Shown: piece after piece, positions 259-37,938 of the stretch
Numbering within the stretch: position 1 is the first letter of the stretch
Layout: each line of letters begins with the position of its first letter
Origin: Craspedostauros australis
Taxonomy: Eukaryota > Bacillariophyta > Bacillariophyceae > Mastogloiales > Achnanthaceae
Direction: 5' to 3'
NCBI GenBank assembly: GCA_026770025.1
Contig: JAMXDE010000024.1
Coordinates: 868,001-932,000 of the forward strand
Length of the DNA: 64,000 nucleotides
Translations under genes and position numbers: made by a program
Notes under the pieces: model-generated
Told to the model about the DNA's origin: nothing
What the model saw: the letters and a program-made list of their open reading frames with translations, nothing else
Database searches by the model: none

Positions 259-2136
259 ATGAAGCTCTGCAACTCCTTCGCACTGGCAACCGTCGCCACC
301 TCCGCCACCTTCTCCACCGTCCAGGGTCTCTACCTCGACTCTCTCAACAATGGAAAGACCGCCAGCGCCCCCAACGGTTTCGTCGAGACCCCGATAGAGC
401 TCGGTCACATCCAGGAAAGCCTCGTGCCGCCGCCAGCGCAGCAGGAGAAGGAAGCCGAGCAACCCTTCGTCATGTACGAGAATGGACTTGACCCCGACAT
501 GCAGCAGGTGGTCAACGCCGACTTGGCAGCGGCCGCCGTGCAGGGCCTCCAGAAGCTGCAGGCACCCGCCTTCGAGGAGCACCCCCTCTTCCCGGAAGCC
601 AAGATCCAAAACGAGTACAGCATCTGGTGCAACAAGTACGACCGCCCCGCAGACGAGACGCGATACCCCACCTTCCGCCAAAACTGGATCCGCCAGGAGG
701 AGTACGGACGCGCCACGGGACAGTATTTCTGGATGAACGAGTTCGGCGACTGCAGCGAAGACGAGTACATGAACATCATGCAGATGAAGGAGCAGATCAA
801 GAATGACCCGCTTCAGCAGAAGCGCGTCGACGCCGCAGCTTCCGCCGCCGCTGCCGCACCAAGCAGCTGGGAGACATCCGCTGTGGACGCTTCGGCGCAA
901 CTCGGAATGTCCACCTACGAACACCAGCTCGCGCACCCGGAAGCCGTGATCGCCGCCGCCAACCAAGCTGGCGCCACCGTCGAGCCGCTCGACCAGGACT
1001 TCTCCTACCTCCAGAACCAAGATTCCAAGCTCGTCGAGTCCGCCAAGAAGGCGGCCGGCAACTACCTCGAGAACCTGAACCCAGGTGAGACCGCCGGCAT
1101 CCACGGCAAGGGCATCGCTTCGTACCTCGACGAGCTCAACCCCAACGAGATTGAGAATCATGGCGAGGTCAAGCGAACCATCACCGAGTCCTACATGGAC
1201 GGCCTGTCCGCACCAGCGGTCGTGGAGGAGACCCCGGAAGCCGTCGCGGCTCCAGAAATCAAGTCGGAGGATGCCGTCAAGTACCAGCACGCTTTGACCG
1301 ACAAGTACTCCGACATCGACTGCGTCGAGGAGAGGGCCTTCCAGGTCCTCCTGGATCTCGGCATGGTCAGCGCCACCGCCGGCAACCTCAAGGAAGTCTT
1401 CGGTCCCACCAAGGCCGCTGGCGCCGTTGTCGACGTCGCCAAGGAGGAGAGCGTCCACGAACCCGTCTTGGACGTTGGGGAACCAGCCGCATCGCTGGTT
1501 GTCGAAGAACCAGCCATCGAGATCGAGCAAGAACACGAGCTTGAGATCGTCCATGATGTGCAGGACGAGCCGCAGCTGGACCTCGAAGTTGCTGAGGAGA
1601 TTGAGATCGAGGACGAGCTCGAGATCGCTGACGAGCTCGACATGGAGATCTCTGACGAAGTTGAAGCCGAGCCACAGTTGAAGCTCGAGGTCGAAGACGA
1701 ACTCAACTTTGCGTTCGAGATCACCGACGAGGTCGAAGAAGAACCGAAGCTGGAGTTGGACATCGTCGATACGATCGAGATCGAGATCGAGGATGAGGCC
1801 GAACTCGAGCTCAACATCACCGATGAGGCCGACGACGAGAAACCGGAGCTCGAAGTAGTAGGCGCGGAAGACGAGGAATTCGACATCGACCTTTCGATGT
1901 TCGAGATCGCTGGCGACGACGAGGATGATGAGGACGCCGCACTCGACATGGAGATGAATTTGGACATTGGCATCACCGAGGACGACATCGTGACTGAGAT
2001 CAGCGAGGAGGAGCTGGAGAAGGAACGCGAACTGGCCGCATCCACCAAGGCCATCGAGAAGTACAATCTGATCGGAGACCTCAAACACCGCGCCTTCCGC
2101 ATCTTTGCGGATTTGCGCTCGGTCGGAAAGCACTAA
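259..2136 (+). CDS. Secreted acidic protein with one I29 (cathepsin propeptide inhibitor)-like domain
   Basis: 625 residues. The start is the ATG at 259, because it is followed at once by a hydrophobic signal peptide (about residues 1-21) ending near TVQG; the frame is open further upstream but without an ATG and in CA-rich leader. Residues about 115-175 match the I29 fold: W-C, then R..F..NW, then LNEFGD and a final E-Y, equivalent to the ERFNIN and GNFD signatures of papain-family propeptides. No peptidase domain follows. Next comes a module with PLDQ-FSYL and repeated G-x-G-I-x-x-YLD-x-L motifs that recurs in the larger gene at 21394. Residues about 418-578 are a low-complexity tract alternating acidic and aliphatic residues. 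Two similar segments (RAF-x4-DL) lie at about 350 and near the C terminus. Codons are strongly C-ending, suggesting high expression. A role as extracellular or vacuolar cysteine-protease inhibitor, or as a surface scaffold, is inference. Confidence 0.82.
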   Translation: MKLCNSFALATVATSATFSTVQGLYLDSLNNGKTASAPNGFVETPIELGHIQESLVPPPAQQEKEAEQPFVMYENGLDPDMQQVVNADLAAAAVQGLQKLQAPAFEEHPLFPEAKIQNEYSIWCNKYDRPADETRYPTFRQNWIRQEEYGRATGQYFWMNEFGDCSEDEYMNIMQMKEQIKNDPLQQKRVDAAASAAAAAPSSWETSAVDASAQLGMSTYEHQLAHPEAVIAAANQAGATVEPLDQDFSYLQNQDSKLVESAKKAAGNYLENLNPGETAGIHGKGIASYLDELNPNEIENHGEVKRTITESYMDGLSAPAVVEETPEAVAAPEIKSEDAVKYQHALTDKYSDIDCVEERAFQVLLDLGMVSATAGNLKEVFGPTKAAGAVVDVAKEESVHEPVLDVGEPAASLVVEEPAIEIEQEHELEIVHDVQDEPQLDLEVAEEIEIEDELEIADELDMEISDEVEAEPQLKLEVEDELNFAFEITDEVEEEPKLELDIVDTIEIEIEDEAELELNITDEADDEKPELEVVGAEDEEFDIDLSMFEIAGDDEDDEDAALDMEMNLDIGITEDDIVTEISEEELEKERELAASTKAIEKYNLIGDLKHRAFRIFADLRSVGKH

Positions 2137-15337: not shown

Positions 15338-16270
15338 GATTGAGGTGTTGGAGTGGCTGCGGAACGGAATGGCAATGAGAATGTTGGATTGTGTGTTTGA
15401 TTTGTGAGGAAGAAGATGAGATCTTTTCTTTGTTCTGTGCTTCATCATTTGTTCACATGTGTGAGGTCCACCATGTCGCCACTTCTGCAAGAAACGCCAA
15501 ACAAAAAGCGGCGCGCCGTCGCGAAACTTGACTCCGACACCAATTCATGACAACCAACACACTTTCTGTACGTGGTCTAGCATATAGATTGAAAGGTATA
15601 ACACCACCATCCCCTTGAAACCCTACTCCATTAGATGATTATAAAAGTCTCATATGATGATTCACATCCTCCAAATAGGATATATCTTCATATTGATGTC
15701 AGTAGGGAGCGTCATAAGATGCACATAGTCTACATCTACAGAAGGTGAGAATTTCGAGAGCGTGTATTTTCTGGCGCGGCCATTTCTTCCTCGCGCTGCG
15801 TCTGTCTGTCGTCCGATGAGGAAAGCGTTGAACTTCGCGCCAAAAATATTGCGGAACTCGCTGGTCACGTGGCCGGTGTGTTTGGAACAATCGGTTCTGC
15901 CGTTTCGAACAACGGGCGTTTTCGGTCACGCGAAAAAAGCGGAACGATGTTTTGTGCAGCGTCGCCATCTCATCACAAACACGTCAACAGCGAGCAACGG
16001 AGAGGAACAAGGAGCGCACAGGCAACGGTCGTCAAGACTTGAACACACGTACTTTACGCAAAGCACAGTTCTGCGCGACGACAACCAACGCACTTCAACC
16101 ACAATCTTTCCACACCACTCTCCACCATTCGGTTCTTTCGCCCCCTTTCGTGGTTTGTCCGAAGCCAGAGCTTGCTCTCCTTCCAAACTTTGGCGAGAAC
16201 AACCACAGCAACAACCACAGGAACAACCGCAGTATCAGCAGCAACAAGGGCAGCGACAACAACTACCACA
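15338..16270. promoter_or_regulatory. Divergent upstream region of coiled-coil and dUTPase genes
   Basis: 933 bp between the two start codons. The right part (about 16190-16265) is CAA/CAG-rich leader. No RNA gene or conserved motif recognised; short ORFs near 15660-15970 on the minus strand were not convincing. Confidence 0.45.
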
Positions 16271-17650
16271 ATGACTCCAACCGCAACAGCAACTGTCGCC
16301 TTCATCCTTCCGCGGAACAGGAACAGCGGCGCCATCGGCACCAGCGGCCTCGTGCAAGCACGCACAGCACAGCAAACTGCCGACAAGATGTTCTCCAGCT
16401 CCTCTCAATCATCGGGCAGCATCGATCCCAGCGACGAGATGGCGCACTCCTCGCAGGAACCGCTGCGCGTCAAGAAGCTCAACGAAAACGCCACGATCCC
16501 AACCCGCGGCTCCCCACAGGCTGCCGGCGTCGACCTCAGCAGCTGCGAGGCCGTGACCGTGGCGCCCAACTCCCGCAAGGTCATCAAGACCGGACTCGCC
16601 ATCGCCTGTCCGCTTGGCACCTACGCGCGCATCGCACCGCGCAGCGGACTCACCGTCAAGAAGGGCATCCACGTGGGCGCGGGCGTCGTCGATGCTGACT
16701 ACCGTGGCGAGGTCGGCGTCGTCGTCTTCAACCTCGGCGACGAAGATTGGGAGATCAAGGTCGGCGATCGCATCGCGCAGCTCATCCTCGAGGAGGTCCG
16801 CATGGTCCCCGTCGAGATCTGCGACTCGCTCGATGACACCGATCGTGGTGCGGGTGGCTTCGGGTCCACGGGAGTCTCGCGCTCCGTCAGCCCCGTGCCG
16901 GAAAGCGCGCCGAGTGCGAAGCGTGCCAAGCTCGAAGAACCGGACTGCGCCATGAGCAGTGCCAGCGGCAGCGACAGCGTTTCCATGTCGAGCGTCGAGG
17001 AGTCCTCGCAACCAGACACCGCAACGGGCAACGACAACGTTGCGCCACCACAGATGACATCCAGCACCAATGACGTTGCTGCGCTCGACGCGCCAACCAG
17101 CGTGGATGTCACGTCCCCCCAACCGGACATGATGCCCAACCATGACGGCACCCTGCGACCAGATGCGCCGACCAACAATGCCGTGCCAATGCAGACCGAT
17201 ACGGTGGTTAGCGATGACTTGACGGTGCAGCCTGGCGTCGCCTCCAGTGCCAAAGCCACAGAAGAAACAACCAGCAACGCTGAACCGACACAGGTAGACA
17301 CGGCTTCCAGCGACCCTGAGTCGATGCCGACGGACCCATCAATGAGTGATGATACAACGTTGCAACAGCCAGACCTCACCGCCAGTGCCAATACTACCCC
17401 AACTCCGGAAGCGCCAGCCAGCAGCGACACTCCGATGGAACCAGATGCCACCATGAACACCCACACCACATCCACTCCAGACGACACGCGCAGCAACGAT
17501 GCTCCAATGGAACCCAATGCGACAGCTACCGACGCCATCTCACCCACACACGAAACATCAGCGAGCTGCGACGATCTTGGTCCAAAGCCAGACCCACCCA
17601 CCAGTGCCAACACCACTGTGAAGCCAGATCCGACAACCGGCACCAACTGA
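16271..17650 (+). CDS. DUT: Deoxyuridine triphosphatase with long C-terminal extension
   Basis: 459 residues from the ATG at 16271; an internal ATG at 16388 (MFSSSSQ) would give a form without the Thr/Ala/Arg-rich N terminus, which could be an organelle-targeting peptide. All five motifs of trimeric dUTPases are present and in order: AGVDLSS (about 85), RIAPRSGL (about 120), GVVDADYRGEVG (about 138, with the catalytic Asp), GDRIAQLILEE (about 165) and RGAGGFGSTG (about 192). The enzyme hydrolyses dUTP to dUMP and pyrophosphate, preventing uracil incorporation and feeding dTMP synthesis. Odd: dUTPases normally end just after motif V, which folds over a neighbouring subunit's active site. Here about 260 further residues follow, rich in Thr, Pro, Asp and Ser with a loosely repeated PD-x-TSSD-x-M pattern. 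Confidence 0.93.
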   Translation: MTPTATATVAFILPRNRNSGAIGTSGLVQARTAQQTADKMFSSSSQSSGSIDPSDEMAHSSQEPLRVKKLNENATIPTRGSPQAAGVDLSSCEAVTVAPNSRKVIKTGLAIACPLGTYARIAPRSGLTVKKGIHVGAGVVDADYRGEVGVVVFNLGDEDWEIKVGDRIAQLILEEVRMVPVEICDSLDDTDRGAGGFGSTGVSRSVSPVPESAPSAKRAKLEEPDCAMSSASGSDSVSMSSVEESSQPDTATGNDNVAPPQMTSSTNDVAALDAPTSVDVTSPQPDMMPNHDGTLRPDAPTNNAVPMQTDTVVSDDLTVQPGVASSAKATEETTSNAEPTQVDTASSDPESMPTDPSMSDDTTLQQPDLTASANTTPTPEAPASSDTPMEPDATMNTHTTSTPDDTRSNDAPMEPNATATDAISPTHETSASCDDLGPKPDPPTSANTTVKPDPTTGTN

Positions 17651-18177
17651 GCTTCACAAACCACGAACAACGACAATGGGGCCAAGAGTAGCTGGAGGAC
17701 TGGGAGTGTCAATACAGCCAAGCTTCAGGTTCACTGAGGTACTCGTGTGAAGTGAACTGCAACAGTAACATAAACTTAGGGTTTGAATATCATCATCATT
17801 CCAACTCTATCATGTGTCACGTCACTCATCTCAAATGTAACATGGAACAAGAATGCGGCGAACCTGTCGGCTGTCGCAGTCAGGAACGTGAATTGGCCAC
17901 GAGGATTGCCAAATCGACACCTTCGACTAAACTTTGAACAACCACGACCAAAATCATCCTTCGCTTCGGTCACACCATCAAGAACGCGCAAGTTGCGCGT
18001 ACAATCACATGGGACAACGCAGACAGGTGCTGTCAACATGACACACAAGAGCGAAGGAACCAGGCACAGAAGGTTTCCATTGTGTAGAGGCAGCATCCAT
18101 CACTCTGATACTCAAGAGCAACTCCTCCACAAAGAAAGAGCGAGAGAGATTGCCCCATCAGCATTCTCTATTGGAAG
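17651..18177. other. Intergenic spacer
   Basis: 527 bp holding the dUTPase 3' region and the upstream region of the oxygenase. No feature recognised. Confidence 0.45.
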
Positions 18178-20073
18178 ATGATGGAGGCAACGATGAAGAA
18201 GACAGGCATTTGGAGGTTCCTGCTTCTGGGTCTGGGTCTGCGTCTGCGACTGGCCAGTGCCGAGGCTGCCTCGGTCACAAACGACAATGTGATTGAGTAC
18301 GGTGTGGACACGGTAAGCATCGACGCCTCATCTTCACTTGCTGTCTTGGTGTGCCGTGATCTGTTGTTTGTGTGGTGACCACTCTGGCATCGATCATATC
18401 ATACTGCGAGCACACGAACGTTGGCGATGCGCCAACGTTGCCGATGGACGAATGAGCGAAATTGTCAGATATAATAATACCTCATTCGCAACATTCGCGC
18501 TGTTCGATTGTGCAACAGTCCTTCCCGATGCATTACAACCACGTTCACACCAACTACGCATGGCTCGCATCGAGCAATTCCAATTCCGACAACAACGGCA
18601 ACGGTAGCAACAGGACGAAGGACGATGGTAGCCGACAGAATCCTCATGACGAACCGATCCAACCGCTTGGTGACAAGCAGAGCTTCTACGACAGATACCT
18701 GCAAGGCTGCATGAAGTACCACGAAGCGTTCAACCGATCCAACGACTGCATCACCAACGAGAAGGGACGCATCGCCATGTCCCTGCGACAACCGAAAAGC
18801 ATGCACAACTACACAGAGCTGGGGTATGCCAAGATCCGTGCACCAACGGAACTCTTCGACATGATCCAAAGGTTCTGGAGTGCCAACCGCGATCAGATGG
18901 TGCTGGAGAGCTGGACCACCGGCGTCTCCTACGTCAATCACTGGGAAAGTCCGACGTACATGCTGTACGTCGAGGATGCTGAGTACGAAGGTGGTGGCGC
19001 TGTGCTGCAGCAGGCCATCTGGAATTCGGCACGCGATATCCTGTCGAAATGGACGCAGCAGGAGCATCTGGCGGAATGCAGCTTGTATGGGATCCGCATT
19101 TACAAGCAGGATGCCATCCTGGCACCGCATGTCGATCGCCTGCCGTTGGTGATATCCGCAATCATCAACGTCGATCAAGATGTCGATGAACCGTGGCCGT
19201 TGGAAGTGATCGGCCGTGATGGCAAGGCAGTCAACGTCACGATGGAACCGGGCGACATGGTGCTGTACGAATCCCACTCCATCATCCACGGACGTCCGTT
19301 TCCACTGCAAGGCAAGTTCATGGCCAATGTGTTCATCCATTTCGAACCCACGCCAACCGATAACATCGAGGACATCAACCCCACGGAACTGCCGCAGTAC
19401 ATCATTCCGGGATCCGAAGAAGAAGCGAACTGGCGCAAGTCCTTCCCAACGGGATATCCTGCACCCATCAAACATCTGGAAGCGAAGGATGCGGCTATTG
19501 ATGGCGACACGCAGTTCTTGAGGGACATGTTCACGGTGGATCCCTCCGCCATCCGCGCATCCGATTCCAACGGATGGCAACCGCTGCATGTAAGTGGCAG
19601 TATGCGATAGTCTATTGCAAAGCACGACATGGCATGTGTTTCATGATGAAAATATTGACAGTCCACATGCAGGAAGGATAGGTGCTTGCAGAAGTCTCAC
19701 TCCATCTACCTCATGCTCACTGCTGCTCACGTCTGCTTTCTCCCTCGTTTGCGCCTCTTTCTCGTTCTGAGCACCACACCTTGTGCAATCGCAGCAAGCA
19801 ATCCGGTATGGTCACTTGGACACCGTGAAAGCTTTGATCGATGAGTTTGGCGCCAACATAAACAGGCGCACGTACCGAAATAAGATTCCGAACGAGGGCG
19901 GAACTCCTCTGTATTGGGCAAAGCACTTCCGCAAAGACGATGGATCCATCGTGAAGTTCTTGCAGGATCGTGGTGCAATATATTTGGCGCCAGGCGACAA
20001 GTATGATGATGCTGGCAACACTGCAGATGATACTGAGTCTGGAGAGGTGGGGAATGGATCCGGCGAGCTGTAG
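18178..20073 (+). CDS. Secretory 2OG-Fe(II) dioxygenase (prolyl-4-hydroxylase-like) with C-terminal ankyrin repeat, three exons
   Basis: Exons 18178-18312, 18519-19589 and 19795-20073; 494 residues. Introns have donors GTAAGC and GTAAGT and acceptors AACAG and CGCAG, both phase 0. Exon joins give GVDT-SFPMHYNH and WQPLH-QAIRYGHLD, the latter rebuilding an ankyrin helix across the junction. An N-terminal hydrophobic signal (about residues 10-28) predicts entry to the secretory pathway. Residues about 130-320 form the double-stranded beta-helix: H249-V-D251 and H302 are the iron ligands, and a basic residue in the GRPFPLQGKFMANVF strand should bind 2-oxoglutarate. N-glycosylation sequons occur. 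Known relatives hydroxylate prolyl or aspartyl residues in the ER; the substrate here is unknown. The ankyrin part may position a protein substrate. One of only two genes here with mappable introns. Confidence 0.9.
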
Positions 20074-21393
20074 CAGTGTCAGAAATGTGGGTGACATCGC
20101 TACTCAACATGGACCAATCAGAGGCCTCCAAACTTTAGCTAGCTTCGTTTCGAGTAGACTGATTTATTCAAAGTTTATCACAATTGTCGCAGCTTCCGAA
20201 GAATTATCACCAGACTCAACGGACCAATCAATCAAGCCAACAGCCAATCAACCAAACCGAGATCTTTGATGCCAGAAGGACGTTTTGTCTGGCGCACACA
20301 AGATTCGGTTTGTGGGTTGCGATCGGTGGCAGATGTGTTGTGTTGCGGTCTTTACTGGTGGAGGAGACAAGATGAGAAGCCATCAACCTGTTCCACTCGA
20401 TGACACACACATTCTTCGCGCACAAGCAAATACCCGAACCCGAACGGATTCCAAACCCCACAAAATTGCCGACGAGCACACAACAGAGCAGAGCAGAACA
20501 AAGCAAAGCAAAGCAAAGCAAAGCAAGAGGAGGAATCCAACAGCGAAGGTGCGTACTGTGCAGCGCAACGCCGCGAAAGTTGCCTCTTCGGAGGACGACG
20601 CCATGGCGGTGCCGATCTTTCGTTTGACCATGGCGGTTGGAAAGGAGTATCCTGGCGTGATGCGGTCATCGGTGGATCGGAAGCATTCGTGATGATGGCC
20701 AGCAGCTGCTGCCTCCTTTCGCAAATTCCGCTGCTGCCGACATCATCATCGCGGCGGCCAACCAGATCGGTCATGTGTCCCAGGTGATGCTCTGCTGTTC
20801 CTTCGCTTTGGTGTTCTCACCGATCGTGTCTCTTCGTTCTTCACTCCGTCTCCGTCAATGGAGTTCGCACCCACCTTTCCATCCATTCCTCCACCCAATG
20901 CACTGCCACCGCGAACAACAACAACACGACACAACTGGTGGATCCATCACCACGCGACGACCTGCCATGGATCTCCGCTCCGGGCACAAAAAAAAAACAG
21001 CAGCTGACAGCAATCGGTGGAGGGCACACAAAACACAAAACAATACTCGCACCGAGTTGCCAACCACAAAATCAAATCAAACCAAATCGAAGCACATCAC
21101 ATCACAATCCAGAGAGCAACACCATCCAGAGCGAAACCAGCACATCAGCAAATTGGACGATCGGCATCGTTGCAATACCTACCTGCTCTGTGCCAACACT
21201 GCCAAATCCGAACGAGTGGGCCCGACATCAACGTCCTGTCCCAATTTCGCCTCTCTTGGTGACTAATCTTGAAAGCCAAGTCAGGACAAGTCAAGACAAG
21301 CCAGCACAAGCGCTGAGCAACAACAAGCGAAACGAACCATTCCACAACAGCGGCAGCACCAACAGGAAGCAAGCACATCGCCATCATCTCATC
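20074..21393. other. Spacer and long upstream region of the ten-I29-domain gene
   Basis: 1.3 kb with no supported gene. Contains an (AAAGC)n tract at 20499-20526. The last ~450 bp stays open in the frame of the next gene and includes CA/AA-rich leader sequence, but there is no upstream ATG that improves on 21394, which starts a clear signal peptide. Confidence 0.5.
20499..20526. repeat. (AAAGC)n microsatellite
   Basis: More than five perfect CAAAG units in tandem. Confidence 0.9.
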
Positions 21394-24300
21394 ATGAGAT
21401 TTTGTGGAAAAGCCGTGCCGTTGGCATTGATGGTCCTTGCGACCGCCGCTCCCGCTTCTGTGGCGTATCAGAACAGTGGCACCAACCCCCACCACGGCAG
21501 CAGTCACAGCAAGCGCACCTCGCCTTCCCCCATGAAGGATTCCAGATTGGAATACGCTTCGAATGCCTCTGTCGACAGCTCCCTGTTCCTCAAGGGCGCC
21601 GTCCAAGTGCGGTACTCGGATGATACCATCCGCCAGGAGTACCAGACGTGGTGCACCAAGCACAGCAAATCCCTGCAGGACAGCACGGACAATGCCCGCT
21701 ACACCCAGTTCAAGTCCAACTGGATCCGCCAGCAGGAGTACGGCAAGAAGACTGGCCAGTACTTCGAGCTCAACGAATTCGGGGACTGCTCCTACGACGA
21801 GTACCTGGAGCGTGACATCATCCGCAAGGAGTACGGCGACTGGTGCGCAGAGTATGGCAAGACGGCCGACTTCGAATCGGACCGCTACGCCAACTTCGCC
21901 ACCAACTGGAAACGCCAGGCCGCGTACAACGAGCAGCACAACATGTACTACAAGCTCAATGAATTCGGCGACATGTCGCAGGACGAATTCACCCGCGTGC
22001 AGCCCAACGACGCTGCCGCCGGTACATCTGCCGTCACCCCACCGGCAACGGCCGCATCCTCGTCCTCCGTCTCGAGCCTGTACGCGGCTCCATCATCCTC
22101 GGCATCCCCGCCGGCTTCCACGGGAGCCTCCGCCACCACCACCGACGACGATCTCACCATCCGATCTGAGTACGCCAATTGGTGTGTCAAATTCAACAAG
22201 GTGGAGGACGATGCCAGGTTCGCCCAGTTCAAGATCAACTGGACCCACCAGAGCGAGCACAACCTCCGAACCGGTGCATCCTTCCAGCTCAACGAGTTCG
22301 GCGACATGTCCCAGGATGAGTTCCAACACCAGTTGCAGGGTGCCAAATCCTCCACCGCCTCCTTCGTCACTGACGATGACACAGACGAGGATGCTCTCAT
22401 CAAGGGAGAGTACGCGGACTGGTACACCCGCTACAGCAAGCTACCAGACGAACATCGTTTCGCCCACTTCAAGGAGAACTGGAAGCGCCAGAGCGAGTAC
22501 AATGCCCAGGTCGGGATCAACTACCTCCTCAACGAGTTCGGTGACATGTCCCAGGAGGAATTCACCTCGATGAAGGAAGAAAAGGAGCAGGATGCGTCTG
22601 CCTCCTCCTCCTCCGACCCGGATTCCACGTCTGCCATGTCGTCGCTTTACTCCGCACCGACGGCAGACAAGGGCCCCAACATGGCTGACGAGAGCAAGCC
22701 ATTCGCTGCCGTGGCATCCACCCCCGCACCACCCCTGCCGGTCGTGTCCACGGCAGCGAAGAGCGCGAGCGACGTCACCATTCGCTCCGAGTACTCCAGC
22801 TGGTGCGCCAAGTACAACAAGAAATCCGACGAAGCTCGCTACGTCCAGTTCAAGCAGAACTGGATTTGCCAGAACGATTACAACATCGAGAATGGCACCA
22901 GCTTTGATTTGAACGAATTTGGCGACATGTCGCCAGAAGACTTCACGTCCATGCAGCAACAAGAGCAGGCAAGCAGTCTCAACACCAGCAGCACCAGCGA
23001 TGCTACCATTGAGACCAGCCCAACGATCGATGCCTCATCCTCATCGTCGGTTGAATCTCTCTACGCTGGCCCTTCGTCCATCGTTGAACCAGAAGCGACA
23101 TCGGGATCGTCGTCGTCGTCTTCGGTGTCCTCGTTGTACCCCGCACCGACCGACACCAAGAGCGAAACTGAGGTTGCTGATGTTGTCATCCCACCTCCTG
23201 TCGACGTTGACATCGGTGCCGGCACTGACACCGACATTGCCATCACTACTGACTCATCTGCAGTCGATTCGAACGTCGTCGACGATGCAACGGTCCGCTC
23301 CAAGTACTCGAGCTGGTGCGCCACGTACGGTAAGCGACCAGACGAAGACCGTTTCGTCAAGTTCAAGCAAAACTGGATCCGCCAATACGAGTACACCCAG
23401 CAGACCGGGAACACCTTGGAGCTCAACGAGTTCGGCGACCTCTCCGAAGAGGAGTTCCACGAGCACAGACAGCTCCAGCAGCGCAAGCAACAGCAGCAAC
23501 TCCAGCAACAGCAGAGTGATGTTGACGCTGCGATCGCCCCCAAGACAGCTCCAGAGATCCTCGATGAAAGCAAGATCCGCTTCGAGTACACGGCATGGTG
23601 CATGAAGTACGACAAGAAACCCAGCGAGGCCCGTTTTGAGCAGTTCAAGATCAATTGGGAACGCCAGCACCAGCACAATCTCGAAAATGGATCGGAGTTC
23701 GAGCTCAACAAGTACGGCGATCTTAGCCCGGCCGAGTTTAGGGAGGTTCTACAGGACGAAACGAGCGACGAGACTGATGTCGTTGAGAACGCAGCACCAT
23801 CAGTTGTCTTCGACGAACCCACTGTGGACAACTTCACACCACCTGTCCCCGCCAAGACGAAGGCCAGCATCGACCTTTCAACCCCAACTGAAGCGCACCG
23901 CGATGTTGCTGACGCTGTCGACCTTACCACGGGTGCAGTCGAGGTGCCGTCCGCACTAGAGGAAGTTGCGGGGTACAGTATTCCCGATGTTACCCCCGAC
24001 GTTGCCTCGGATATCATCGACGAGACTGCGACCGAAGACGCCACCGACGATATCGAAGATGAAGACGCCAAGATCAGATCGGACTACCAGGAATGGTGCG
24101 TCAAGTATGAGAGACAAGAAGACGAGACTCGCTTCCCCAACTTCAAGCAGAACTGGATCCGCCTGAACCAATACAACGCGGACAATGGAAGCTCTCATTT
24201 CCTCAACGAATACGGCGACTACTCCGACGATGATTTTGCGTCCATGCAAGCAGAGGCAGACGCAGAGGCGAAGGTAGCAGCAGAAGCTGCAGAGGCCAAG

Positions 24301-26901
24301 GCGAAAGCCCAGGCGGAAGCAGAAGAGGCCGCCATCGCAGAGGTTGCAGCCATAGCAAAAGCAGAGGCCGAAGCTGAAGCGGAAGCCGAAGCAACTGCCG
24401 CCGCCGCCGTTGCTGCTGCCGCCGAATCTGCAGAGCCTGCTGCACAAGTCGAAGTTCCCAAACCAGCAGCTCCAGAGCGCCTTTCCAAACCAGCGGCTCC
24501 GGAACCTCCGTCGCTCTTGCAATCACCAAAGCCCATGCAGGGTGGCCTTCCGGTCGAGGAGAGTGTTTGGGATACGCCCATGCCGAGCCTCTCGCTCGGA
24601 GCCACCACTCCAGCACAGCCAGCCATCCCGGATCCAGCCCAAGAAGATGACTCGAAGATCCGATTCGAGTACGCGGCATGGTGCATCCGACACAGCAAGG
24701 AGCAAGATGAGAACCGTTACCTTCAGTTCAAGCAAAACTGGATCCGCCAGAACGATCGCAACACAGAGACCGGCGAATCCTTCGGCCTCAATGAGTACGG
24801 AGATCTCTCACCTTCCGAATACCAGCAGATCTCGCAACAGGAGGAGGAGATGTCGCCCGACGCAGGAAGGTCAGACTACGAGGAGTGGTGCGTCAAGTAC
24901 GATAAGACGCCCGAAGACCATCGCTTCGAACAGTTCCAAGTCAACTGGCTTCAGCAGCAAAAGTACGGGAAGGAGACTGGCGACTACATCGAGCTGAACG
25001 AGTTCGCCGACTGTACAGCCGCTGAGTACCATGCTCTCAAGAGTCTGGCGGAAGCAACCGGCGCCACTCTCGCCCAGCCACCCCCGCCAAAGGTAGAGGA
25101 AGCGAAGGAAGCCAAAGAGATGACAGAAGAGAGAGGTGACGAACTATCATCTGCCTTCATCGCCGCCACCACCACCGCCGGCAAGGGATACTTGGACACC
25201 TTGATGCCCTCCAGCTCTGATCGCGTCACTGGAAGCGGAGCTGACATTAAGGGCTACGTCGACTTCCTCAAGTCGACCGCAACCGACAACCACGGAGAAG
25301 GAATCCGCTCCCACCTCGACTCTGTCGCTTCTGCCGATGCCTCGGCATTCTCGACCGATGCATTCCCCAAGGCTCCACCAACAGGTCCATCCCACACCCC
25401 ACAGGCCACGGTGATTCCTGACGTGAGCAGTATGAACGCATACTCCGCACAAATGCAAGATCCAGACGCTGCGTTGGCCGCTGCGGCGGCTGATGCGGCG
25501 AAAAACGCCGTGAAGCCACTGGACCAGAACTTTTCGTACCTCAAGAAACCAGCCATGGCGACCCCTTCAGGATTGTCCAACGGAACTGGCTTCAAGTACT
25601 TGGATCGTCTCAAGACCTCCAAGCCAACCCGCAGCAATGGTGCAGGAATGAAGGGATACCTCGACGGAATGAAGCCGAAGCCAACGGCCTTTGTTGGTCG
25701 CGGCAAGGGCATCCCATCCTACTTGGATCGTGTCAGCAATGTGAATGCTTCCCAGCTATCACCGCCAGAGAGCAGCAAGGTGCAGGCGGCCCCGGCACCC
25801 GCGACTGTGGCTCCAACCAAGACAGGTGAAGCATGGATGCCACCGCCTCCCCAGACCGAGACGGCGGAAGCACCTCGCATGCCCGCGCACGAGCAGCAGA
25901 TGTCAAGCCATCAGCAAGATATAGCACCACCAAATGCTCCAGACCTGACCTTGCAGCAAGGCGCCCAGGGAAATGCGACTCCACAGAGCGGTGGATCGCA
26001 GCCTGGGGTTCGCACATCGAACGCGTTTGGCTTCCCACCCAGAGATGGTATCTCGCAGTTCGTTGACGGGGTGACCAACTCGGATGCGCCAACTTACTCT
26101 GCCAATGCGTTCCCACAATCGCCACCATTCGCGGGTGGCTCGGACGGGATCATCGAGAAGATCGAGCATGATTCTGTCATGTCCGCGTACGACCAGCAGC
26201 TCGCAGAAGCAGCACCCAAGGCAGAAGCAGCACCCAAGGCAGAAGCACCGTCCAAGGCGGCAACACCCAAGAAAGATGGCATCAAGGGATTGGACGACAT
26301 GTTTGCCTACAAGAAAGAGACGGTCGTTTCCTCGATTCCGGGCAATGCCAGCCCTGAAGTCGAACCACCGCGTCAGTCCGCGGCAACCAAGACTACGAGC
26401 CCGACGCAAAAGGGCAACCTGCTGCTTGGAAAGCAGCCGCAGGCACAACAGCAACCACAAACACCAACCAAGAACAAGCCACCCGCCGCCGCAACCGCCA
26501 GTAGCAAGGCCATCAACCCACCAAAGGACATCATTGCGACACCGTGGGAGAATGCAACACGCACAGGAAGTTCGTACTTGGACGACATGCCGCGCAACGC
26601 CACGACCACGGCAGCCAACCAAACAAAGACCGACAACTTCCTGGACTTCGTCTCCAAAGAGGAGGAGGAAAAGAAGAAGGCGGAGGAGATCCGTTCCACA
26701 TTCGCGGTGGAACGCACCAACCTGCTCGGGGCTTCAGGCACTCCGCAGCAACAGCTGGAAGCCCAGGAGGCCCGCGGAAAGCTTGCCAAGATCGATAAGC
26801 AGAAGGCGGGAGAGGATGGCTCCGACAACTTCTTCAATGGATTGCGCAGCAACATCGTCGGCATGTTGAAGGGCTGGGGCTTCCTCGACAACGGAAATTA
26901 G
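21394..26901 (+). CDS. Secreted protein with ten tandem I29 (cathepsin propeptide)-like domains
   Basis: 1835 residues, intronless. The ATG at 21394 begins a signal peptide (MRFCGKAVPLALMVL, cleavage after about residue 24). Ten domains of about 60 residues start near residues 76, 140, 253, 333, 459, 630, 725, 890, 1086 and 1159. Each has EY-x-x-WC, R-(F/Y)-x-x-FK-x-NW, an N or G turn and LNE-(F/Y)-GD-x-S-x-x-EF, i.e. the ERFNIN and GNFD signatures of papain propeptides. Nine of ten keep the Cys after Trp (domain 4 has Tyr). Linkers are Ser/Ala/Pro/Thr-rich; between domains 8 and 9 is a long Ala/Glu helix. The C-terminal 600 residues hold at least seven copies of G-x-G-(I/M)-x-x-YLD-x-(L/M) plus the PLDQNFSYL block shared with the gene at 259. 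No protease catalytic domain. Multi-I29 proteins such as fish salarin inhibit cysteine proteases; inhibitor or matrix function here is inferred. Codon use is strongly C-ending. Confidence 0.88.
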   Translation: MRFCGKAVPLALMVLATAAPASVAYQNSGTNPHHGSSHSKRTSPSPMKDSRLEYASNASVDSSLFLKGAVQVRYSDDTIRQEYQTWCTKHSKSLQDSTDNARYTQFKSNWIRQQEYGKKTGQYFELNEFGDCSYDEYLERDIIRKEYGDWCAEYGKTADFESDRYANFATNWKRQAAYNEQHNMYYKLNEFGDMSQDEFTRVQPNDAAAGTSAVTPPATAASSSSVSSLYAAPSSSASPPASTGASATTTDDDLTIRSEYANWCVKFNKVEDDARFAQFKINWTHQSEHNLRTGASFQLNEFGDMSQDEFQHQLQGAKSSTASFVTDDDTDEDALIKGEYADWYTRYSKLPDEHRFAHFKENWKRQSEYNAQVGINYLLNEFGDMSQEEFTSMKEEKEQDASASSSSDPDSTSAMSSLYSAPTADKGPNMADESKPFAAVASTPAPPLPVVSTAAKSASDVTIRSEYSSWCAKYNKKSDEARYVQFKQNWICQNDYNIENGTSFDLNEFGDMSPEDFTSMQQQEQASSLNTSSTSDATIETSPTIDASSSSSVESLYAGPSSIVEPEATSGSSSSSSVSSLYPAPTDTKSETEVADVVIPPPVDVDIGAGTDTDIAITTDSSAVDSNVVDDATVRSKYSSWCATYGKRPDEDRFVKFKQNWIRQYEYTQQTGNTLELNEFGDLSEEEFHEHRQLQQRKQQQQLQQQQSDVDAAIAPKTAPEILDESKIRFEYTAWCMKYDKKPSEARFEQFKINWERQHQHNLENGSEFELNKYGDLSPAEFREVLQDETSDETDVVENAAPSVVFDEPTVDNFTPPVPAKTKASIDLSTPTEAHRDVADAVDLTTGAVEVPSALEEVAGYSIPDVTPDVASDIIDETATEDATDDIEDEDAKIRSDYQEWCVKYERQEDETRFPNFKQNWIRLNQYNADNGSSHFLNEYGDYSDDDFASMQAEADAEAKVAAEAAEAKAKAQAEAEEAAIAEVAAIAKAEAEAEAEAEATAAAAVAAAAESAEPAAQVEVPKPAAPERLSKPAAPEPPSLLQSPKPMQGGLPVEESVWDTPMPSLSLGATTPAQPAIPDPAQEDDSKIRFEYAAWCIRHSKEQDENRYLQFKQNWIRQNDRNTETGESFGLNEYGDLSPSEYQQISQQEEEMSPDAGRSDYEEWCVKYDKTPEDHRFEQFQVNWLQQQKYGKETGDYIELNEFADCTAAEYHALKSLAEATGATLAQPPPPKVEEAKEAKEMTEERGDELSSAFIAATTTAGKGYLDTLMPSSSDRVTGSGADIKGYVDFLKSTATDNHGEGIRSHLDSVASADASAFSTDAFPKAPPTGPSHTPQATVIPDVSSMNAYSAQMQDPDAALAAAAADAAKNAVKPLDQNFSYLKKPAMATPSGLSNGTGFKYLDRLKTSKPTRSNGAGMKGYLDGMKPKPTAFVGRGKGIPSYLDRVSNVNASQLSPPESSKVQAAPAPATVAPTKTGEAWMPPPPQTETAEAPRMPAHEQQMSSHQQDIAPPNAPDLTLQQGAQGNATPQSGGSQPGVRTSNAFGFPPRDGISQFVDGVTNSDAPTYSANAFPQSPPFAGGSDGIIEKIEHDSVMSAYDQQLAEAAPKAEAAPKAEAPSKAATPKKDGIKGLDDMFAYKKETVVSSIPGNASPEVEPPRQSAATKTTSPTQKGNLLLGKQPQAQQQPQTPTKNKPPAAATASSKAINPPKDIIATPWENATRTGSSYLDDMPRNATTTAANQTKTDNFLDFVSKEEEEKKKAEEIRSTFAVERTNLLGASGTPQQQLEAQEARGKLAKIDKQKAGEDGSDNFFNGLRSNIVGMLKGWGFLDNGN

Positions 26902-27380
26902 GTAAGGACGAAGACACGATGAGGCATGATGACAGTACCAACAGCACCAAAAGCAGGAACAAGAACAAGAAAGAACGTCGACACCACCAACAACAACGAC
27001 ACCAACAACGATGGCGCCATGAAGCGGCACGGAGAAAGGCAGACAAACAGGTCAACAACAGTAACAAGAAATGATAAGATGAAGTGAAACACAACAATCG
27101 AAAACAGAGTATCAGCATCGCTGCATGACAAGTAGTCCGCTCATGCGGACTTGCTGTTGCACCTTGGGGACGCGGGTTCGTGCTTCGCGATGTCCAACCA
27201 GCGGCACTTTCATGCAGGTGACTCAAGAGGATCACAAGACAATCAGGGAGCGCAACGGCCTCATGCAAAAAGCTTGTGTGTACTGGCATTCGTTGGGTTG
27301 ATTTGTTGTGATGTTTGTAAGTTTACAGGATAAGATGTTGTGTTTTGCAGCGCATGAATAGTTGCATCGCGCTTGACGAT
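26902..27380. other. Spacer between convergent genes, with hairpin
   Basis: About 480 bp between the I29 gene and the V-ATPase-like gene. A perfect 7-bp stem with a 4-base loop (AGTCCGC TCAT GCGGACT) sits at 27133-27150; its role is unknown. Confidence 0.4.
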
Positions 27381-33750: not shown

Positions 33751-36700
33751 ATGCAGCAGCACACCATGAAGCCAAAGCGCAACAGCAGCAACAACGGCGA
33801 AGACGCCGACGATGACGCCGACGATGCCGCGGACATCGAGAACGCGCGGCAGAGGGTGGAAGTCAGCGTCGACTTCCGCGCACCGCCGCAGCGCGATGAG
33901 ATCAGCGACATCCACGACCAGCACAGCGACGGCGGCGCCTCGTGGATCGGCAGGGTCTTCGAATCGGGCAAGGCTCGCAAGCGCGGTCACGCGCGTCGGC
34001 GCCGTCGCAAGTCGTCGCGCAGCGGAGATCTCGTGGGCCTCGTCGACACGGTCGAGAGCTACGGACAGGTGCAGCCCGACACGAACAGCCGCCGCCATCG
34101 TCCCACCCTCATCTCGCACGTTCCGCTCGTGGACCTGTTCCGCGAACAGCGGGACCATGCGAGGCTGCGACGCCAGACGTCCAGCTTGTCGAGCCAGATC
34201 CATGGGGGCACGCGCCACAAGCCCGGCGGCAGCAAGTTCGGCATTGATCATTATTCCGATGCCGTCTCGCGCACATCGAGGCGCCGCCACATCCTCGACG
34301 CGGCCGGCATCTCGCCCACCTCCTTCCAGGCGCGTTCCGTCGCCTTGTTGCGGTGGGCAGTGATCATTGTCTGGCTGACGGCGGCCTGCATCATCAGTCT
34401 CGTTCTCGTCAAGAGGTACGCCGAGGGCAAGGAGGAGGATGAGTTCCAGTTCCAGTTCAAGGCCAACGCTGACAAGCTGGTCAACAGCTTCCGAACCTCC
34501 ACGGACAACCGCTTGAACGCCGTCAACGCCTTGGCCACCTACATCACCGTCTTCGCTCGAGAGACCAGCGTGGAGTTTCCATTCGTCACGCTGCCAGGTT
34601 TCGTCATGGCCGGTGCGAATACCCGCATCTCCGCAGAATCCATCGTCGTCTCCTGGTTGCCCCTGATCACGGATGCCAACCGGGAACGGTGGGAAGCCTA
34701 CGCCTACACCAGAAGGTTCCACGCCAACAGGGCCCTCAAGCAAGATACATTCTTTCGCAAGCAGCAGGATATCGAGCACGGTTACCTCGATGCCGAACAG
34801 GGCGCCAAGGAGCTGGCCAAGTACGCAAGCTACGCGGAGGACGTATACGTCAATCCTCCCCTGGAAAACGTCACGGTCATCAACAACACCGTCAGGGACG
34901 GGACCTCCTACCATCCCCAGATTTGGGGAAGCAGAGATGGCGATGCTCCCAGACCAAAAGGATCCGGCCCGTATCTCGTCACGTGGCAGCGCTCACCGGC
35001 CAGCAACTTCATGCAGTTTGGGCTGAACACCGATGCTGCCACGAATCCTATCCGACGCGGCGTTGTTGGTCACATCCTCAATCAGAAGAAACCCGGCATC
35101 CTCTTCCATCCTTCGTCGTTTCCACGACCAGAAACTGTTGCATTTGCCAACCAAACCATACAGCAATCGCAATATCGGCACGACGGTGAGGCCTATCTCG
35201 GCGATCCAGCGGCCGTGGTCTCCTACCCCATCTACGACGATTATGGCAAGGGCAATTTCATCGGGGTGTTGTCGTTGACCTTGTACTGGAGACTCTTCTT
35301 CATCAACATCCTGCCACGCAACGCCAAAGGATACATCTGCGTCCTGCAAAACAAATTCAACCAGACGCTCATCTACAGAGTGGACGCTGATCAAGCGCGA
35401 TTCATCAGAAGCGTTCCACCAGACGAAGTCGATAGCCTGAGCTTTGGCTTCGACGACATGGTCGTCACGTCGGAGATCGGCATGGACGACAGAGCCAACG
35501 CACGATCAAAGGTGGAGACGCAAGCCTACACCACGCTCCCCATCGACACCGACTACAACACCTACACCATCCGCATCTACCCCACGCAGGAAACGTTCGA
35601 CGTCTACAAAACGGACGATCCCATCTTCTACACCTCCCTCGTCGCCGGGATCTTCGCTGTGGCGGCCATGGTCTTCCTGGCCTACGACTTCTGCGTGCAG
35701 AAGCGACAGCAGCTCATCGCCTCCAAGGCCATCGAGAATGCACAAAAGGCGGCGGCGGCCGAGCGCGATCTCAACGAGTACATCGCGCACGAGGTCCGCA
35801 ATCCCTTATCGGCAGCCCTCAGCGCCTGCAGCTTCGTCGACTCGGCCGTCAACGAGGTGCGTCCTTTGTCCGACGACGAGTCCAAGCAGCTCGTGCGCGA
35901 AGATGTGCAAATCATCAACTCCTCCTTGACCTTCGTCAACGAGCTCTTGCGCAACCTGCTGGATCTGCATCGTGCCACGGATCGGCAGATTCGAATTCGC
36001 AAACGGCAGACGGATATCTTCGAGGAAGTGTTGCGTCCCGTGGCGTCCATCTTGTATCGTCGCGATGCGAGTTACGAGCTGATCGTGGAGTGCTGTCCGA
36101 GGCAGCTGCTCGTGGATACGGACTGTCTGCGTTTGAAGCAGGTGCTGTTGAATTTGGGTCGCAACGCGTCCAAGTTTGTGGAGGGCGGGTTTCTGCGTTT
36201 GCGAGCGGAGATCGAAGGGGAGGACGATGCTGCTGCTGTTGGTGGTGACGGTGGTGGTCGCACTGATGGTGGCAATGGAGGGACAGACGCCAACATGAAC
36301 TTGGACAGCACGATGGATGGGAGGGGGCAACTGGGTCGTTCCGTGAAGATATACGTGGAGGACTCAGGTCCTGGCATTCCAGCGGAGAATCGTAAGCATC
36401 TCTTCTCCAAGTTCAAGGAAAGTCTGGATGTGGCCACGCAAGGGGCTGGGATTGGGCCGTGTCTCTGCAAGAATCTCATGGACATCATGGGAGGTGACAT
36501 CAGTCTGGATGAAACGTACGACAGCGGTGTTCCGGGCAGGCCAGGAACACGCTTCGTCATCGATTTGAAGGAGATGCCATCGGAGCCGCCGAATGCGCAA
36601 GGCACAAACCGCACGGCCGGGACAGGTGGGGCCGCTGGCAACACACAGAAGCCTGCACGATCTGTTGCGTTCGCCCCTCTTCATCCATCCGAAGCCATCG

Positions 36701-37938
36701 AAACGCCGGCAACGGGTCCACATGGGGGGACGGAGGCCATGCCTCAAGAATCAACTGACAAGACGGAGATCGATACTGGCAAAGGAAGCACCGACGGCTT
36801 GTACAGCGGGGATGGGGATGACAACGACGACGATCGACACTCGATCGTGTTGACATCACCCGTCACATGTGATGCCTTCCAGGACTTGGGCTCGAGTTCG
36901 CACAGCAAACGGCGCACCATGAAACGCAGCTACTCGAATCTGTCTTCCTTGTCTAACGAGCCGATCGACGAAGGCTTTGAGGATGAGACGAGCAGCGGAG
37001 GGAATTCGGGATTGACGCCTGTGCTATCTCTAGGGGACGAAGAAATGCGTGACATATCCGGTTCGACCAGCACCGAGCCAGGCAGTGCTGACAAGGGCAG
37101 TGAGGGAGCTGCTGCTTCACCTTCCAAGCAGCAACAGCAGCATGAAGAGCAGCAGGGTGATCCGGGGACAGATGTGGCAACGCCTCAGACTGTGGTCACT
37201 GGGAGTGCGAATACTGCAGACGCTGACGACGCGGCCCAGCAAGCGATGTCACCAGGCCAGTCCATCTTCGCAAGTCAATCGCCGCAGCATCCCTCCAAGT
37301 CCCTGTCATCAAGTGATCTCGTTCAGTCCGCGCTTCTGGGCAACTCGGACAGTTCAGGCTTGCTAGAGGCATCGCTGTCGTTTGACCAGGAACCTCCAAC
37401 GAGTCCTCGGTCACTGCCCGCAATTCCTCTGTCGCCATCACAAAATGTCGACGTCTCTGATACCAAAACGACGAATGAGGAACATGACGACGCAGCAGAC
37501 AAGAAGGACGACGAAACTAGCGAAAAACAACGCAGCGATTCAGTGCCGACCGACGAGCTCCCGGAGAAGCTGTCCGTTCTGTTCGTTGACGACGACAAGG
37601 TGCTGCGCAAGCTCTTCGGACGCTGCGTGAAACGAGCATTCCCCGATTGGACGGTGAAGGAAGCACCCGACGGCGAAACGGCGTTGCAGATGGCTGACAA
37701 GGGACTTCACGATTTGATCTTCATGGACCAGTACATGTCGACGGCGGAAAAGAAGCTGCTCGGCACGGAGACGGTGGAGGAAATGAGACGGCGCGGCATC
37801 ACGAGCAAGATCTGCGGTCTGTCGGCCAATGATGTTGGTGAGGCATTCTCTGCGGCGGGCGCAGACGCCTTCATCTGCAAGCCGTTGTCGTTTGACAAGG
37901 CCCGGTTGCAAGAGCAGATTAAATGGATCATGTCGTGA
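33751..37938 (+). CDS. CHASE-domain hybrid sensor histidine kinase
   Basis: 1395 residues, intronless. Residues 1-200 are basic, Arg/Ser-rich and cytosolic. A first membrane helix (about 201-223, WAVIIVWLTAACIISLVLV) is followed by an extracellular CHASE-type sensor (about 240-610; core FVTLPGFVMAG and SWLPLITDANRERWEAYA) and a second helix (about 626-648). The HisKA dimerisation domain has the phospho-acceptor H680 in IAHEVRNPL. The ATPase domain shows the N box (N805), DSGPGIP (about 871) and GAGIGPCLCKNLMDIMGG. A 370-residue Ser/Gln/Asp-rich linker leads to a receiver domain (about 1277-1393) with the acidic triplet 1280-1282, phospho-acceptor D1326 and K1377. It should sense an external ligand at a membrane and relay phosphate from His to Asp, then to a histidine phosphotransfer protein. 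The ligand is unknown; cytokinin binding is not implied. Confidence 0.93.
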   Translation: MQQHTMKPKRNSSNNGEDADDDADDAADIENARQRVEVSVDFRAPPQRDEISDIHDQHSDGGASWIGRVFESGKARKRGHARRRRRKSSRSGDLVGLVDTVESYGQVQPDTNSRRHRPTLISHVPLVDLFREQRDHARLRRQTSSLSSQIHGGTRHKPGGSKFGIDHYSDAVSRTSRRRHILDAAGISPTSFQARSVALLRWAVIIVWLTAACIISLVLVKRYAEGKEEDEFQFQFKANADKLVNSFRTSTDNRLNAVNALATYITVFARETSVEFPFVTLPGFVMAGANTRISAESIVVSWLPLITDANRERWEAYAYTRRFHANRALKQDTFFRKQQDIEHGYLDAEQGAKELAKYASYAEDVYVNPPLENVTVINNTVRDGTSYHPQIWGSRDGDAPRPKGSGPYLVTWQRSPASNFMQFGLNTDAATNPIRRGVVGHILNQKKPGILFHPSSFPRPETVAFANQTIQQSQYRHDGEAYLGDPAAVVSYPIYDDYGKGNFIGVLSLTLYWRLFFINILPRNAKGYICVLQNKFNQTLIYRVDADQARFIRSVPPDEVDSLSFGFDDMVVTSEIGMDDRANARSKVETQAYTTLPIDTDYNTYTIRIYPTQETFDVYKTDDPIFYTSLVAGIFAVAAMVFLAYDFCVQKRQQLIASKAIENAQKAAAAERDLNEYIAHEVRNPLSAALSACSFVDSAVNEVRPLSDDESKQLVREDVQIINSSLTFVNELLRNLLDLHRATDRQIRIRKRQTDIFEEVLRPVASILYRRDASYELIVECCPRQLLVDTDCLRLKQVLLNLGRNASKFVEGGFLRLRAEIEGEDDAAAVGGDGGGRTDGGNGGTDANMNLDSTMDGRGQLGRSVKIYVEDSGPGIPAENRKHLFSKFKESLDVATQGAGIGPCLCKNLMDIMGGDISLDETYDSGVPGRPGTRFVIDLKEMPSEPPNAQGTNRTAGTGGAAGNTQKPARSVAFAPLHPSEAIETPATGPHGGTEAMPQESTDKTEIDTGKGSTDGLYSGDGDDNDDDRHSIVLTSPVTCDAFQDLGSSSHSKRRTMKRSYSNLSSLSNEPIDEGFEDETSSGGNSGLTPVLSLGDEEMRDISGSTSTEPGSADKGSEGAAASPSKQQQQHEEQQGDPGTDVATPQTVVTGSANTADADDAAQQAMSPGQSIFASQSPQHPSKSLSSSDLVQSALLGNSDSSGLLEASLSFDQEPPTSPRSLPAIPLSPSQNVDVSDTKTTNEEHDDAADKKDDETSEKQRSDSVPTDELPEKLSVLFVDDDKVLRKLFGRCVKRAFPDWTVKEAPDGETALQMADKGLHDLIFMDQYMSTAEKKLLGTETVEEMRRRGITSKICGLSANDVGEAFSAAGADAFICKPLSFDKARLQEQIKWIMS

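Follow-up and report, generated by a model that had tools for sequence, protein, structure and literature searches.

Ten I29-like propeptide domains without a protease in one protein of the diatom Craspedostauros australis: a candidate multivalent plastid scaffold

In Craspedostauros australis, four genes were found of a family whose members carry the I29 propeptide fold and lack the protease. One of them, in the stretch of 64,000 nucleotides analyzed here (the window), encodes ten I29-like units in a single chain, separated by long, acidic, low-complexity linkers and followed by a C-terminal tail of 623 residues. With ten folded modules, acidic linkers that hold four SLYxxP motifs, and some ten YLDxL motifs in the tail, the protein has the architecture of a multivalent scaffold, and a protease-inhibitor function for this protein is not favored. 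We see about an even chance that the protein is imported into the plastid and acts there as a multivalent scaffold, either of the pyrenoid, which contains Rubisco, or of the area right around it. Coordinates of all features are given in Table 1.

Table 1. Features of the window and of the related genes on contig C10
Feature	Coordinates	Strand	Remarks
CDS, ten-domain protein	21394..26901	+	Single open frame, 1835 aa, predicted pI 4.6
Signal-peptide-like N-terminus, ten-domain protein	21394..21465	+	Residues 1-24; by eye ...APASVA/YQNSG, Tyr at +1
I29-like domain 1	21640..21804	+	WC ... FGDCS type; Pfam, alignment, tree
I29-like domain 2	21832..21990	+	Best Pfam stretch
I29-like domain 3	22171..22323	+	
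I29-like domain 4	22411..22563	+	Tyr replaces Cys after Trp
I29-like domain 5	22792..22944	+	First row of structure prediction
I29-like domain 6	23305..23457	+	
I29-like domain 7	23587..23739	+	
I29-like domain 8	24085..24237	+	
I29-like domain 9	24670..24822	+	Query of whole-genome search
I29-like domain 10	24877..25029	+	In the tree, groups with domain 1 and with the second window gene's domain
Span with four SLYxxP linker motifs	22051..23163	+	Within 22051-22107, 22618-22674, 23032-23088, 23107-23163
C-terminal tail, ten-domain protein	25030..26901	+	YLDxL motifs; weak PF25195 match
PLDQNFSYL element, ten-domain protein tail	25516..25542	+	Common to second window gene
Second family gene, 625 aa	259..2136	+	Signal-peptide-like N-terminus then LYLDSL, one I29-like domain, PLDQDFSYL, YLDxL, acidic tail
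I29-like domain of second window gene	604..768	+	
PLDQDFSYL element, second window gene	985..1011	+	
C10 gene a	C10:2088818-2098684		Met at C10:2088818; open frame 3300 codons; two I29-like domains, then WSP motifs
C10 gene b	C10:2102110-2105549		Met at C10:2102110; about 3.4 kb beyond the end of the C10 gene a frame

Results

The Ten-Domain Gene

The frame opens at its first in-frame ATG (21394) and comprises 1835 codons, no Met being encoded between the preceding stop, which ends at 20787, and this ATG; inspection by eye of the 1.1 kb upstream of 21394 revealed no alternative start with a better plastid leader. The GC content at the three codon positions (0.58/0.46/0.69) resembles that of the GDH and histidine-kinase genes in the window.

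The original prediction, made from the sequence alone, had described a protein of about 1835 residues without a protease, and both statements hold: the Peptidase_C1 domain that, in the same gene, characterizes papain-family proenzymes is lacking, and none of the at least 15 Peptidase_C1 matches in the genome lies on the contig of the ten-domain gene. A downstream peptidase exon joined by splicing, which the prediction had named as an outcome that would overturn it, was looked for on the contig and not found; it is rejected, since no Peptidase_C1 match lies on the contig and a gene on the opposite strand follows, the next downstream ORF tested encoding an ATP-synt_C domain on that strand.

Elsewhere in the window are an ORF with a DDE_Tnp_1_7 transposase domain (7735-10368), a hybrid histidine kinase with HisKA, HATPase_c, and response-regulator domains (33751-37938), and a protein with a putative ice-binding-like adhesive domain (PF20597) and DUF7633 (56272-58875).

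Sequence and Fold of the I29-like Units

The Pfam-A search assigned ten stretches of the protein to Inhibitor_I29 (PF08246) with E 2.1e-51 and 172.5 bits, well over the curated cut-off of 24.4 bits, so that the ten I29-like domains predicted earlier passed the profile search proposed for checking them. The units span residues 83-1212, with successive gaps of 9, 60, 29, 76, 120, 43, 115, 144, and 18 residues, and each measures 51-55 residues when counted from its first conserved Tyr through the Phe or Tyr at its end. According to the alignment, Y, W, R, F, N, W, L, N, and D are invariant in all ten. The residue following the first conserved Trp is Cys in nine units, as had been noticed before, and Tyr in unit 4; the Cys is also kept in the unit of the second window gene.

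The ERFNIN motif of the I29 prodomain, given as ExxxRxxxFxxNxxxIxxxN in the cited part of a study of dinoflagellate peptidases (PMC6355014), is incomplete in the ten units. Its R, F, and first N are invariant, the Ile position is occupied by Gln in nine units and by Leu in one, and the loop before the R is shortened, with no conserved Glu four places before it; compared with the proenzymes of this genome, the units also have a shorter loop between helices 1 and 2. Due to the incomplete motif, we call these units I29-like rather than typical I29 prodomains.

Structure prediction for a single unit, the other check proposed earlier, yielded the helical I29 propeptide fold with a mean pLDDT of 92.5, and the closest solved structures to this model are cathepsin propeptides. 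Similarly, a profile of the ten units, when compared with PDB sequences, matched papain, procathepsin H, and other proforms (best E 1.8e-6). The single-sequence model of domains 9-10 was poor (pLDDT 47) and was left aside.

Units 2-10 are 43-55% identical to unit 1 at the protein level, and Tandem Repeats Finder, applied to 15500-27000, detected no array over the I29 domains; it reported a short array in the tail (26203-26271) and a few others outside the gene. The I29 array is therefore not recent, and its origin from a recent tandem DNA repeat is ruled out.

The Protease-Less Family in the Genome

All whole-genome match counts for I29, Peptidase_C1, and domain 9 are lower bounds. At least 14 I29 matches in the genome exceed the cut-off, at least eight of them in the ten-domain gene and at least six elsewhere, and each of the six other I29-matching genes listed is accompanied on its own strand by a nearby Peptidase_C1 match. 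When domain 9 was compared with the whole genome at E up to 10, at least 14 matches were obtained, the weakest with E 0.34. Those listed belong to four genes: the ten-domain gene accounts for ten of them, the second window gene for one, and two genes of contig C10 together for three; none of the six I29-peptidase genes is among them. The scanned I29 stretches of the two C10 relatives score 22.2 and 19.2 bits, just below the cut-off of 24.4; in C10 gene a, Pfam found a further I29-like domain, with the whole-stretch score below the cut-off.

In the tree of domains (57 columns, midpoint root, a long proenzyme branch), the 15 protease-less domains are set apart from three proenzyme domains of the same genome with support 88/89, values that the tree tool itself does not yet rate as firm; these are three of the six proenzyme domains, the other three having been found as fragments and left out. 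The domain of the second window gene joins the first and last units of the array with support 96/97. Scans of viral contigs (one stretch matching a pattern) and of bacterial and archaeal genome contigs (five stretches matching) confirmed no relative.

Comparison With Known I29 Proteins

Stand-alone I29 inhibitors exist, and in CTLA-2alpha, crammer, BCPI, and procathepsin L the inhibitory contacts are made by residues C-terminal to the helical core, the cleft-reaching segment being M75-Q79 in procathepsin L, L77-R80 in BCPI, and C75 in CTLA-2alpha, as described in the cited sections of PMC4089206. Among the ten units, conservation stops with the helical core and none is seen past the EF end of the unit; when the unit of the second window gene is added to the alignment, there is likewise no fully conserved column past the core. 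Thus, judged by conservation alone, the units do not have the cleft segment of I29-type inhibitors. The conserved Cys, which had been proposed as a possible site of disulphide links or of contact with a protease active site, lies in helix 1 of the model, outside the region of CTLA-2alpha C75.

The ten-domain protein resembles the stand-alone inhibitors (MEROPS I29/PF08246: CTLA-2alpha, crammer, BCPI, salarin) in the I29 fold and sequence and in that its chain carries no protease. It differs from them in having ten units, long linkers, a shortened helix 1-2 loop, and a C-terminal motif region, in lacking a conserved inhibitory tail, and in that its relatives carry plastid-type leaders. Another protein with more than one I29 prodomain per chain is VLKP, a tandem-repeated pro-peptidase of the dinoflagellate Symbiodinium; however, according to the part of the description cited (PMC6355014), it has two copies, each paired with a C1A peptidase of its own, and its prodomain contains an ERFNIN motif.

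Motifs of the Tail and the Link to DPC2

The second window gene matches the tail of the ten-domain protein with E 5.3e-7, the two having PLDQ(N/D)FSYL and YLDxL motifs in common. YLDxL-type motifs number ten in the tail by a loose pattern and seven by a stricter one, and none of 2000 shuffles reached seven, with the pattern written after the motifs had been seen; the four SLYxxP motifs of the linkers were likewise matched in number by none of 2000 shuffles, this pattern, too, having been written after the motif was seen. YLDxL is absent from four unrelated window proteins and present in three of the four family genes, C10 gene a being devoid of it.

The link to DPC2 (PF25195, "Diatom pyrenoid component 2"), with which YLDxL-type motifs, present in few genes of the genome, are shared, is a weaker one and needs caveats. 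The curated cut-off of PF25195 is 70 bits, whereas the whole tail of the ten-domain protein scores 32.6 bits (E 1.1e-7) and the second window gene 20.8 bits (E 5.4e-4). No single stretch of either passes E 0.01, and hence their scores are sums of weak repeats. The product of C10 gene b (E 1.4e-5) and two C12 proteins (E 3e-14 and 1.8e-10) are also below the cut-off, the best score among the scanned genome proteins, 53.7 bits, belonging to C12. The genome-wide PF25195 search at E up to 10 matched eight places, spread over four genes and all short of the cut-off; the ten-domain gene is one of the four, its tail appearing with E 0.25 and 1.35 only. With a C12 DPC2-like protein as the query, independently of the PF25195 profile, the window tail was matched with E 1.3e-4 and the second window gene with E 0.16; a PDB sequence search with the same query produced one chance-level match.

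Several proteins elsewhere in the genome bear related motifs. The two small DPC2-like proteins, near 1031093 and 1070379 of C12, have FSYLDNL after a signal-peptide-like start. A protein with long EEARVKAE-type repeats (C18:261113-264208) ends in six GxxYLDxL-type motifs; its gene had E 0.009 in the genome PF25195 search, and as a protein it had no match at E up to 1. A KYxxIDxxEDRAFxILxDLGM-like motif of the second window gene (1273-1380) is common to two C2 proteins (C2:1521066-1525240), one of which has, by eye, a plastid-type leader with VDAFSV; a PDB sequence search with the motif region (1255-1380) gave no match.

Leader Sequences

Diatom plastid leaders also open with a signal peptide. 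Therefore, the signal-peptide-like N-terminus of the ten-domain protein, recognized by eye, does not establish the secretion that was claimed originally. The ASAFAP motif with Phe at +1 marks diatom plastid leaders, the Phe being described as crucial, and proteins over the ASAFind cut-off may lack it, according to the passages of PMC4329603 cited here. By eye, the ten-domain leader is atypical for plastid, as it has Tyr, not Phe, at +1; the net charge over the following 40 residues is +1. The leader of the second window gene is poorer still, with Leu or Gly at +1 and a net negative segment after it. Both C10 relatives have plastid-type leaders by eye, namely, IDA-FTSWAP in gene a (IDA/FTSWAPRSF, ...IDAFTSWAPRSFVSRTG) and AAFAPAR in gene b, the N-terminus of which contains AAFAPARIQRSRH.

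The C10 Relatives and Rubisco-Type Stickers

C10 gene a contains 38 WSP motifs, 37 of them as NPFxxWSP, compared with a mean of 0.8 and a maximum of 4 in shuffles. They are mostly 25-46 residues apart, and 36 of the 41 exact genome matches to the DNA pattern for NPFxxWSP are inside this gene. In PYCO1 from Phaeodactylum tricornutum, the sticker KWSPRGGS binds the Rubisco small subunit, the Trp being required; PYCO1 is basic (pI 10.03) and mostly disordered, and its authors report, in the text cited, that BLAST found no homologs in other sequenced algae (PMC10288592). C10 gene a resembles PYCO1 in its plastid-type leader and many W-S-P motifs (KWSP in PYCO1), and may be considered a candidate PYCO1-type Rubisco linker. 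The residue before WSP is Ala in 33 of its 38 motifs and Lys in none, and the pI of the protein is 5.5. A PDB sequence search with part of the WSP region gave no match.

RbcL and RbcS of this genome match PDB Rubiscos over nearly their whole length, among them 5mz2, identified as the Thalassiosira antarctica enzyme in the cited part of PMC10288592. Of the three small-subunit residues named in the interface with the PYCO1 sticker, N105 and N133 are present in RbcS of this genome, and the third, G137, is Ser at that number.

The likeness to PYCO1 does not extend to the ten-domain protein, which contains no WSP and thus no KWSP sticker, has no PYCO1-like large-subunit motif by the pattern tried, and is acidic, unlike PYCO1.

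C10 gene b opens with two I29-like domains, separated by a frame break that we read as an intron; YLDxL motifs and numerous GTQVIQRA-type repeats follow.

Discussion

The sequence shows the I29-like domains, their fold, the gene family, and motifs that recur among its members; from these we infer where the ten-domain protein would be located, what partners it would have, and that it would scaffold them, possibly by condensation. In proenzymes, the I29 fold is a protein-binding module; in the ten-domain protein, it probably binds one repeated partner. In the proposed mechanism, the propeptide fold, freed of its protease, would serve as a folded interaction module; the protein would be imported into the plastid, where its ten modules on flexible linkers would bind the repeated partner and the C-terminal YLDxL motifs would bind a second one, common to DPC2-like proteins, while the two-module relative would link Rubisco to this network through its 38 WSP motifs. 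The pyrenoid appears the most likely site, since a sister with the same module carries Rubisco-type stickers, and others carry motifs resembling those of a pyrenoid family.

More tentatively, the I29-like modules might bind Rubisco or another pyrenoid component directly, in the manner of the CcmM SSUL domains, which we take to be Rubisco small-subunit-like, with the 38 WSP motifs of the sister clamping the small subunit. CcmM of beta-carboxysomes has repeated small modules in one chain, and its SSUL domains bind several Rubiscos, as stated in the cited portion of PMC13159521; we claim no relation of fold, and Rubisco binding by the I29-like units is putative. The literature search listed no paper joining I29 domains and the pyrenoid among its matches, although two 2024 Cell papers on the diatom pyrenoid may touch on the finding; for YLDxL peptides, one unrelated paper was among the matches listed, and in a diatom paper (PMC9731442) "I29" is a page number only.

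An extracellular, cell-wall, or adhesion scaffold, exported via the secretory pathway, in which the I29-like modules served as structural beads and the WC cysteines formed cross-links, would agree with a signal-peptide-like N-terminus lacking Phe at +1, with the Cys kept in nine of the ten units and in the unit of the second window gene, and with the acidic, low-complexity linkers. We nevertheless consider it unlikely, given the leaders of the two C10 relatives and the Rubisco-type sticker motifs of one of them; moreover, the number of Cys per unit varies (one in six units, two in three, none in the remaining one), and disulphide pairing within a unit is therefore not the rule. The original prediction had offered a multivalent inhibitor or an extracellular scaffold. 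The idea of a scaffold is retained here, its extracellular location is weakened by the plastid-type leaders, the YLDxL motifs, and the WSP-rich relative, and the inhibitor is weakened by the unconserved cleft segment.

A plastid scaffold that served not the pyrenoid but the thylakoids, the envelope, or the periplastidic compartment would be compatible with the leaders of the relatives; the WSP motifs belong to another member of the family, so that Rubisco binding need not extend to every member. This alternative seems to us improbable, as the YLDxL region weakly matches a family named for the diatom pyrenoid.

Finally, there is little probability that the protein is a secreted multivalent inhibitor of papain-family proteases, blocking one enzyme molecule per unit like the stand-alone I29 inhibitors (PMC4089206, in the part cited): the strong I29 similarity, the propeptide fold of the model, the existence of such inhibitors, and the signal-peptide-like N-terminus would suit it, but the ten units show no conservation in the stretch that makes inhibitory contacts in known inhibitors, the ERFNIN Ile is replaced, the units lie apart in the tree from the three proenzyme domains of this genome, the domain 9 matches listed include no proenzyme domain, and the tail motifs and the plastid-type leaders of the relatives are left unexplained.

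As to the pyrenoid-associated scaffold, which we prefer, the analysis has yielded a candidate Rubisco linker with 38 WSP motifs. If this reading is true, a protease-inhibiting fold has been turned into a building block, and a folded domain detectable by profile would mark such scaffolds and provide a handle for finding them across diatoms.
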